Source: Dehalococcoidia bacterium
GTDB taxonomy: Bacteria > Chloroflexota > Dehalococcoidia > Tepidiformales > Tepidiformaceae
Assembly (NCBI GenBank): GCA_020432045.1
Contig: JAGQHB010000009.1
Coordinates: 1-42,853, forward strand
Length of the DNA: 42,853 nt
Direction of reading: 5' to 3'
Below, piece after piece: positions 14,653-16,615 of this stretch. The position numbers were made by a program, and so were the translations under genes. The notes under the pieces were generated by a model. That model did not search any database, was not told where the DNA came from, and saw nothing but the letters and a program-made list of their open reading frames with translations. Numbering within the stretch: the first letter of the stretch is position 1; each line of letters opens with the position of its first letter.

Positions 14653-14658
14653 TAGAGT
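14653..14658 (+). promoter_or_regulatory. -10 box of the Rdx-selenoprotein operon
   Basis: TAGAGT followed by seven bases and the ATG at 14666. There is no ribosome binding site. The placement supports ATG at 14666 over the GTG at 14657, which lies inside the box. Confidence 0.5.
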
Positions 14659-14665
14659 GCACGCG

Positions 14666-14911
14666 ATGGCGAAGCTCGAGATCTCGGTGGAGTACTGCGC
14701 GAGCTGCAACTACCTGCCCCGCGCCTTGTGGATGGCTGGTGAGATCCTCACCGAGATCCAGTTCGACGTGTCGCGCTTCGACCTCGTTCCAGGCGACATG
14801 GGCGTCTTCGAATGGTCGGTGGGCGGGGAACCGGTGTTCAGCAAGTCCGCAACCGGGCGTTTTCCCGACATCGAAGAGCTCAAGGAAGCCATCTACGCAA
14901 AGCTGGAGTGA
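14666..14911 (+). CDS. Rdx-family redox protein (SelW/SelT/SelH-like), Cys form
   Basis: 81 residues. Rdx proteins have a thioredoxin-like fold with a CxxC or CxxU redox motif and are thought to act in thiol redox control. C11-A-S-C14 follows the first strand (I-S-V-E-Y), so this is the cysteine form of a family that often contains selenocysteine. The later G-x-F-x-W-x-V segment and R-F-P-D-I-E-E-L-K-E-A-I C-terminal helix are typical. It lies 5 bases upstream of the UGSC selenoprotein gene on the same strand and shares its promoter, which suggests the two work in the same redox process. Confidence 0.88.
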   Translation: MAKLEISVEYCASCNYLPRALWMAGEILTEIQFDVSRFDLVPGDMGVFEWSVGGEPVFSKSATGRFPDIEELKEAIYAKLE

Positions 14912-14916
14912 ACGCC

Positions 14917-15450
14917 ATGGCAGACACCATCCGCATCGTTAGCCCTGTCGGGCAGCCCTTCGTCACGGAGGCATCGCCGGCACTGCGCCCCTCGTCGCTA
15001 AAGGGCTTGCGCCCGGGCATCCTCGAAAACCGCAAGGCGAACGCACGCCTGCTCATGGAATCGATGGTCGACGGCCTGCGCGAACGTGTGCCCCTCGGCG
15101 CATTGACCGTCGGCAGCAAGCCGGTGGCCGGCCCGCCCAGTCCCAGCACCTTCGACCTCCTGGTCCGCAACTCGGACTTCGTGGTCGTCGGGAGCAGTGA
15201 CTGAGGATCCTGCACGACGTGGAGTATCCACGCCGCGATCGAGTTTGAAAAAGCCGGGATCCCGACCGTCACCATCGGTACCAGCGTGTTTGAAGACCTG
15301 TTGAAGCTGGAAGCGGAGCAGCGCGGGATGCCTGGTCTCACGTACCTGCTGGTCGAGCACCCGCTTGGCGGCATCCGTCCCGATGCTGTGCGAGCGAAAG
15401 CGCACGCTGCTGTCGATGCGCTTGAAGCTGCGCTCCTGGGGAACCGGTGA
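14917..15450 (+). CDS. UGSC-family selenoprotein (in-frame TGA read as selenocysteine)
   Basis: 177 residues when the TGA at 15202-15204 (codon 96) is read as Sec. The residues around it read S-S-D-U-G-S-C-T-T-W-S, the signature that gives the UGSC family its name, and the frame continues with sound family-like sequence (A-I-E-F-E-K-A-G-I-P-T-V and V-E-H-P-L-G-G-I) for another 81 codons to TGA at 15448-15450. Before it lie L-R-P-S-S-L-K-G-L-R-P-G and L-E-N-R-K-A-N-A. Sec and the Cys three residues on could form a redox pair. Biochemical role unknown. A plausible SECIS hairpin follows the TGA. It is 5 bases after the Rdx gene and overlaps the next gene by 4 bases (GTGA). A gene caller that treats TGA as stop would give a truncated 95-residue protein. 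Confidence 0.93.
15206..15240 (+). promoter_or_regulatory. Putative bacterial SECIS element
   Basis: Hairpin starting just after the Sec TGA (15202-15204). The top is a perfect 6-bp stem CGTGGA/TCCACG (15218-15223 with 15227-15232) with loop GTA (15224-15226), so the loop starts with GU as SelB-binding loops usually do. Below it G212C213 can pair with G235C236, and an outer stem GATC/GATC joins 15206-15209 with 15237-15240, leaving an unpaired CT (15210-15211). There are 19 bases between the TGA and the loop, within the range known for bacterial SECIS elements. Confidence 0.72.
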
Positions 15451-16502
15451 CTGCGCGCACCCGCCCCGCGGAGACGTTCGAACTCCCGGCCGACCCGGTC
15501 GAGTTCTCGCGCGAATGCCAGCGCCGGGGCTGGTCCGATGGGCTGCCGCTGATCCCACCGACGGCGGAGCGGGTCGCCGCCATGGTCACCGCCTCCGGGC
15601 GCGAACCGCTCGAACTCATCGGCGTGTTGTCCCCGCGGCAGGGCATGGCCACGGTGGAGGCGATCGCTGCCAACGCGGTGATGGCCGGCTGCGAGCCTCG
15701 CCAGTTCAGCGTGCTCCTCGCGGCCGTCCAAGCCGTTGCGGACCCGCGCTTCAACCACGATGGCATCAACGCGACGACGCACCCCTGTGGCATCTTCGTC
15801 CTCGCCAGTGGCCCAAAGGCGCGCGAAGCCGGAATTCATGGCGGCACCGGCTGTTTCGGGCCGGGCTTCCAGGCAAACGTCTCCATCGGCCGCGCCCTTC
15901 GACTGGTGATGCTCAACATTGCCGGGGCGTCCCCGGGCGTCGGCGACCGTGCCACGCAGGCGACCCCGGCCAAGCTTGCCTTCTGTGCGACCGAGCGCGA
16001 GGACGCAAGCCCCTGGCCGCCGTTCCACACCACGCGCGGATTCGCCGCCGGCGATTCGTGCGTCACGGTCTGGGCCTGCGAAGGGCCGCACAACATCCAG
16101 GAGCACGGCAGCAACACGGCGGAGGGCATCCTCCTCACGATTGCCGGGGCGATGGGCCAGGCCGGGAGCAACAATATCCTCGCGGGCGGCGAGCCAGTCC
16201 TCTGCCTCGGTCCCGAACACGCGGCCACGATCGCTTCCGGCGGCTACAGCCGCGAAGACATCCAGCAGTACGTCTTCGAACACGCCCGCTACCCGGTCGA
16301 TCGTCTTTCTCCCGAGTTCCTCGAGATGGTCCGCGACCGCATGCAGGGCGGCGAAGGTGAACGCGAGATCGATGGCACAATCGGCATCATTGAGCGCCCG
16401 GAAGAGCTCCACGTCATCGTCGCTGGCGGCGTCGGCAAGCACTCCTGCTGGATGCCCACCTTCGGCGGCATGACCCGGCCGGTCACCGTAGCGATCCGGT
16501 AG
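15447..16502 (+). CDS. Conserved protein translated with the UGSC selenoprotein; function unknown
   Basis: 351 residues, start GTG inside the stop region of the selenoprotein gene (GTGA overlap), so it is translationally coupled. It has G-W-S-D-G-L-P-L-I-P-P-T near residue 28, a region with A-N-A-V-M-A-G-C, T-T-H-P-C-G, G-G-T-G-C-F-G-P-G-F, and a C-terminal G-G-V-G-K-H-S-C-W-M-P. Cys residues are numerous and several stand beside Gly. I do not recognise a catalytic family; there is no signal peptide and no membrane helix. The tight coupling suggests that it is the partner or substrate protein of the selenoprotein. Glycine-rich loops suggest a ligand site, but this is only an inference. Confidence 0.85.
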   Translation: MTARTRPAETFELPADPVEFSRECQRRGWSDGLPLIPPTAERVAAMVTASGREPLELIGVLSPRQGMATVEAIAANAVMAGCEPRQFSVLLAAVQAVADPRFNHDGINATTHPCGIFVLASGPKAREAGIHGGTGCFGPGFQANVSIGRALRLVMLNIAGASPGVGDRATQATPAKLAFCATEREDASPWPPFHTTRGFAAGDSCVTVWACEGPHNIQEHGSNTAEGILLTIAGAMGQAGSNNILAGGEPVLCLGPEHAATIASGGYSREDIQQYVFEHARYPVDRLSPEFLEMVRDRMQGGEGEREIDGTIGIIERPEELHVIVAGGVGKHSCWMPTFGGMTRPVTVAIR

Positions 16503-16615
16503 GCGGCCGCACCTGGCGGCAGGCGACCCAAGCTGGCAAACGAGTGTCGCCGAGGTCCGGGCCGACGATTGGTTCGCCCATAGGGCTCCGCCCATGGCCT
16601 GAACGAGCCACCGGA

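Follow-up and report, generated by a model that had tools for sequence, protein, structure and literature searches.

The gene at 14917-15450 of the 42,853-nucleotide stretch of Dehalococcoidia bacterium DNA analyzed here (the window) very probably encodes, judging from comparative sequence evidence, a selenoprotein of the UGSC family with selenocysteine (Sec) at an in-frame TGA codon. UGSC genes are almost always found beside a gene for a second protein, here called ds. At the level of sequence profiles, the UGSC protein proves to be a stand-alone domain distantly related to the one that bears Sec in GrdB and PrdB, the selenoprotein B of glycine/sarcosine/betaine/D-proline reductases (PF07355, TIGR01917, TIGR04483). 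The features of the locus are as follows.

14657..14911, + strand: small redox protein of the SelW-like (Rdx) type, encoded first in the cluster; CxxC (CASC); PF10262, E 2e-20
14917..15450, + strand: UGSC-family selenoprotein gene, 177 aa, Sec at codon 96; PF24696, 144 bits, residues 7-173; homolog alignment
15202..15204, + strand: in-frame TGA, very probably read as Sec (the U of UGSC); TGA in 41/41 aligned class homologs, Cys in named plasmid homologs
15216..15234, + strand: candidate bacterial SECIS hairpin, whose core helix pairs 15218-15223 to 15227-15232 around the loop GUA (15224-15226); covariation over 41 sequences
15447..16502, + strand: ds, the partner protein of 351 aa, from an undescribed family; starts with GTG, its first 4 nt shared with the end of UGSC; co-occurrence and adjacency; model pLDDT 91

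The recoded UGSC gene

The original prediction placed a selenoprotein of this family behind an in-frame TGA, and its reading frame was reproduced from the sequence: starting with ATG at 14917, the frame has as its codon 96 a TGA (15202-15204), set in GSSD-TGA-GSCTTW, and runs on through 81 more sense codons to TGA at 15448-15450. The UGSC motif occupies codons 96-99, with Cys99 as the candidate resolving cysteine. One Pfam profile, UGSC (PF24696), spans the TGA and matches residues 7-173 of 177 with 144 bits against a gathering score of 25 (E 6e-42), bearing out the proposed family identity for both halves of the read-through protein. The NCBIfam equivalog model NF041046 (UGSC_fam) gives 113.5 bits, which is under its curated cut-off of 125, and so the protein is filed under PF24696 and not as an NF041046 equivalog. 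It differs in this score from the family as presented in the available text of PMC2398784, PMC9312934, and PMC13188914, but shares with it the full-length profile match, the UGSC motif, a SECIS-type hairpin, and Sec/Cys exchange. PMC2398784 counts UGSC proteins with the most abundant selenoproteins of the Global Ocean Sampling data, in both the marine and the nonmarine part.

UGSC was found in 61 of the 197 genomes of the class, with one internal TGA in each of the matches listed. TGA stands at the homologous column in 41/41 aligned class homologs, nearly always as D-U-G-S-C. Plasmid homologs from Natrinema, Halorientalis, Haloterrigena, Halosolutus, Halostagnicola, Halalkalicoccus, Arthrobacter, Roseovarius, and Variovorax have the Cys form, CGSC, and UGSC with TGA occurs in Acidovorax and Paracoccus plasmid records. 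Codon 96 is thus Sec or Cys in these homologs, as it should be if the original prediction is right. Two fused UGSC-ds homologs, from Sporomusa and Vibrio plasmids, have lost both Sec and Cys, reading DMGTS where the others have D-U/C-G-S-C; aside from these outliers, U/C-G-S-C is strictly conserved. The Arthrobacter protein (L101:6991-7806) has a C-terminal NifU-like domain.

Codon differences between the window gene and a homolog with 94% identity (L051) are predominantly silent, the silent:replacement counts being 34:6 upstream of the TGA and 33:4 downstream. Since silent changes dominate equally on both sides, selection on the C-terminal part matches that on the N-terminal part. This result and the retention of TGA throughout the aligned class homologs uphold the earlier opinion that a pseudogene is unlikely. 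The L051 sequence is a 3-kb contig labelled Phycisphaerales HKST-UBA08, on which all three genes are present and 93-95% identical to their window counterparts; the contig is probably misbinned. A 571-aa antisense open frame (14880-16595 of the window, - strand) spans all of UGSC and ds and is probably a high-GC artefact.

SECIS hairpin and Sec machinery

The SECIS test used a gap-free alignment of the 48 bases from the TGA in 41 sequences. In the hairpin columns (15-33), 86% of cells are paired and there are 27 two-sided changes, versus 8.1 in shuffles. The covariation score is 0.243 versus 0.095 for shuffled alignments, a value that 0/500 shuffles reach, and slid controls score at most 0.065. 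At column pair 21-27, 25 sequences have C-G and the remaining 16 have G-C, with zero exceptions; this swap mostly tracks a Cys (TGC) to Trp (TGG) codon change, via the third position of the codon two steps on. In the window sequence alone, the region 3' of the TGA folds no better than its shuffles (z -0.2), and the hairpin is accordingly judged by the comparative test only.

The genome from which the window comes (3.48 Mb, 97% complete) has tRNA-Sec (anticodon TCA), selA, selB, and selD, all above cut-off, so that a search for selA, selB, selC (tRNA-Sec), and selD, suggested with the original prediction, located all four. The selD gene (L019/L055, G000:C2:37669-38601) itself carries one in-frame TGA, making SelD of this genome a likely selenoprotein. 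There is also a second UGSC gene, of the ALADUGSCTTC type (L054:8118-8621, G000:C30), and, on a different contig, a second ds gene (G000:C83:29754-30710). Another likely selenoprotein is a PrdB-like protein (L087:1120-1890, - strand, G000:C81) in which an in-frame TGA is followed by PDC, giving UPDC, a UxxC motif. It has the C-terminal domain of GRDB but not the complete N-terminal region, a form that is common in the class, with 22 loci.

Could codon 96 instead be a true stop or a nonsense mutation, with the downstream half being a pseudogene or a gene of its own? Standard annotation treats TGA as a terminator, and the window hairpin taken singly is not unusually stable. Set against this are the invariant TGA of the class homologs and its replacement by Cys elsewhere, the equal purifying selection on either side, the complete Sec machinery, and the covariation 3' of the TGA; termination at codon 96 is therefore highly improbable. 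Rather, the profile match across the TGA, TGA/Cys conservation, silent changes, covarying hairpin, and Sec machinery point to a genuine member of a known selenoprotein family.

A near-constant partner protein

The rdx, UGSC, and ds genes are tightly packed on one strand: rdx (14657-14911) stops 5 bp short of UGSC, and ds starts with GTG at 15447, within the last 4 nt of UGSC. The overlap had been noticed before and used to argue against a pseudogene. It is indeed present, but the earlier account missed the role of the overlapping gene as near-constant partner, which emerges from co-occurrence and adjacency. In the class, ds is present in 58/197 genomes, namely 58 of the 61 that have UGSC and 0 of the 136 that lack it (Fisher p 8e-47, a value that overstates independence because the genomes are related); 3/61 UGSC genomes are without ds. 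Among the 108 UGSC genes listed, 94 have ds no more than 1 kb away; the two genes share a strand in 93 of these cases, and ds is upstream in 50 and downstream in 44 of the 94. The 14 that are not near ds include contig-edge cases and unlinked copies.

The two proteins can also be fused in one frame, in either order: ds-UGSC at L056, and UGSC-ds at L063 and in the Sporomusa and Vibrio plasmids. The two plasmid fusions (L104:5299-7023 and L146:5323-7008) are near aconitase X / DUF126 genes. A fusion of UGSC to a domain termed 'Unknown_1' is reported in the available text of PMC2398784, and 'Unknown_1' may well be ds. The pair extends to haloarchaea, alpha- and betaproteobacteria, and actinobacteria. 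On several haloarchaeal plasmids two ds paralogs flank a Cys-type UGSC (L103, L105, L149, L150), and this ds-UGSC-ds arrangement suggests a three-subunit enzyme. Haladaptatus has ds with no UGSC annotated beside it. The Acidovorax record has no listed ds gene.

The ds protein has zero Pfam, NCBIfam, or PDB sequence matches, and 31 aligned relatives had no consistent match either. Its near-invariant stretches DGLP, NAVMAGC, and NATIGRA suggest, from conservation, a putative active site. The AlphaFold model is of high quality (pLDDT 91, pTM 0.91), and fold searches with it (Foldseek, VIA) gave no confident relative, the best Z being 5.3. The best Foldseek rows, class I fumarases, are weak (E 7.5e-4 but TM 0.27). 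These rows, and those for Toblerone-fold proteins, FtsZ, and chorismate mutase, were dropped as evidence of function.

Kinship with GrdB and PrdB

The AlphaFold model of UGSC (pLDDT 94, pTM 0.87) is a five-stranded, flavodoxin-like alpha/beta domain of beta-alpha repeats. In the model Sec96 is located just before helix 97-112, which follows the third strand; this is not the thioredoxin order, in which the redox motif comes after the first core strand. A likely Trx-like fold is stated for UGSC in the available text of PMC2398784, but is not supported by the predicted model. Fold-search matches were generic alpha/beta domains, among which the lack of any given family carries no weight, and a PDB sequence search with UGSC found nothing convincing.

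TIGR01917, the glycine reductase selenoprotein B model, is matched by 15/41 UGSC members. For direct comparison, profiles were made of the PrdB-like proteins and of GrdB as found in the class, each sequence being read on past its own Sec. In hhalign, UGSC aligned with the PrdB-like profile at a probability of 94.5% (E 8e-8) and with full-length GrdB at 92.9% (E 4e-7), in both cases with Sec on Sec in register. The UGSC-ds comparison, which served as negative control, gave 0.2%, i.e. no homology. By profile comparison the Sec domain of UGSC is thus homologous to that of selenoprotein B, but the 177-aa protein lacks the N-terminal part of GrdB and matches the Sec region alone. The idea that ds is this missing N-terminal part was dropped since ds shows no relation to GrdB in such a comparison (probability 1%). 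Glycine and D-proline reductases use dithiols to drive reductive cleavage through Sec (reviewed in PMC10298544), and thiol-reductant genes near some UGSC loci are a further point of likeness to the GrdB/PrdB systems.

Dithiol supply and gene neighborhood

The gene upstream of UGSC in the window is a member of the SelW-like/Rdx family (PF10262), with CxxC where several relatives have CxxU. The order rdx-UGSC-ds occurs in seven loci: the window, L051, L052, L053, L115 (with a 1.7-kb gap after rdx), L116, and L125; the Rdx proteins of all seven have CxxC. Rdx homologs with CxxU are found near unlinked UGSC copies (L040, L044, L062, and, some 2.6 kb away, L060). Overall, rdx is near 4/23 test loci versus 0/20 controls.

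Elsewhere the neighboring thiol genes are of another kind. The UGSC neighborhoods of Roseovarius, Variovorax, and Arthrobacter contain trxB, and that of Arthrobacter also trxA; L120 has TrxR-like and glutaredoxin-like genes near UGSC, and L109 a TrxR-like gene. In the class, TrxR neighbors are a minority (3/23 loci versus 1/20 controls). Other neighbors include TRAP, TTT, branched-chain ABC, and MFS transporters, CoA transferases, a CoA ester lyase, the PEP mutase family, DUF6282, and a 2-hydroxyacid dehydrogenase. The neighboring genes for transport and CoA compounds, seen in other organisms, point to organic-acid uptake and catabolism, though weakly since several are common genes. CoA transferase, SDR, and LLM neighbors were left uncounted because they occur near control regions too.

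A possible modular reductase

That UGSC is almost always encoded beside ds suggests a two-part, thiol-driven reductase. The association of the genes is observed directly; that the proteins form a physical complex is what we infer from it. On balance we favor the interpretation that UGSC is the redox subunit, and ds the other near-constant subunit, of a multi-protein enzyme, a Sec reductase recharged by dithiols. In such an enzyme ds would hold a small, carboxylate-type substrate, and attack by the Sec96 selenolate would reduce it or cleave it reductively. The adduct would then be resolved by Cys99 of U-G-S-C, giving a selenenylsulfide, which a dithiol protein would re-reduce: the SelW-like CxxC protein in the window, thioredoxin plus thioredoxin reductase elsewhere. 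More tentatively, and with the odds slightly against so broad a formulation, UGSC and ds may constitute a new class of modular selenium-dependent reductase that combines a stand-alone Sec domain of the GrdB/PrdB type, an undescribed partner, and a separate dithiol donor; it would be distributed among Chloroflexota, proteobacteria, actinobacteria, and (in Cys form) haloarchaea, and would reduce an organic acid.

The main counter-evidence to the reductase mechanism comes from the fused homologs without Sec and Cys; the DMGTS of the Sporomusa and Vibrio proteins means that redox chemistry is not essential in every family member. The small share of class loci with TrxR neighbors and the dissimilarity of ds to GrdB also count against it. 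The same fusions, which retain ds and adjoin aconitase X / DUF126 genes, would fit an arrangement in which ds is the catalyst (e.g. an organic-acid lyase, hydratase, or isomerase) and UGSC a domain for redox regulation or substrate delivery with a non-catalytic Sec. The solitary ds of Haladaptatus and the weak fumarase rows also favor this, but the otherwise strict conservation of U/C-G-S-C, the lack of a confident fold match for ds, and the three UGSC genomes without ds make it unlikely. Only a little less unlikely is the assumption of the metagenomic literature that UGSC has a general role in thiol redox reactions or antioxidant defense, resembling thioredoxin or peroxiredoxin; ds would then be its protein client or a chaperone-like companion. 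UxxC is a thioredoxin-type redox motif, the Trx-like fold has been put forward in PMC2398784 (in the text available), and SelW-like and Trx/TrxR genes are neighbors. The flavodoxin-like model with Sec after the third strand does not have the thioredoxin order, however, the profile relative of UGSC is GrdB/PrdB, and nearly strict pairing with one partner family better fits a dedicated enzyme.

Significance

As far as sequence comparison can tell, this selenoprotein adds a new member to the known UGSC family. In the available text of the open-access papers that name UGSC proteins, we found no function or fixed partner described for the family, save for the fusion to 'Unknown_1', and no description of the near-obligate partner, the GrdB/PrdB kinship, or the thiol-donor context. 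UGSC genes are also lost in annotation: those of the Paracoccus (L102:5420-5989) and Acidovorax (L099:5392-5682) plasmid records are annotated as fragments, split or truncated near the Sec TGA. A near-constant partner, a probable source of electrons, and remote kinship to glycine and D-proline reductases move the family from 'function unknown' to a testable reconstitution.
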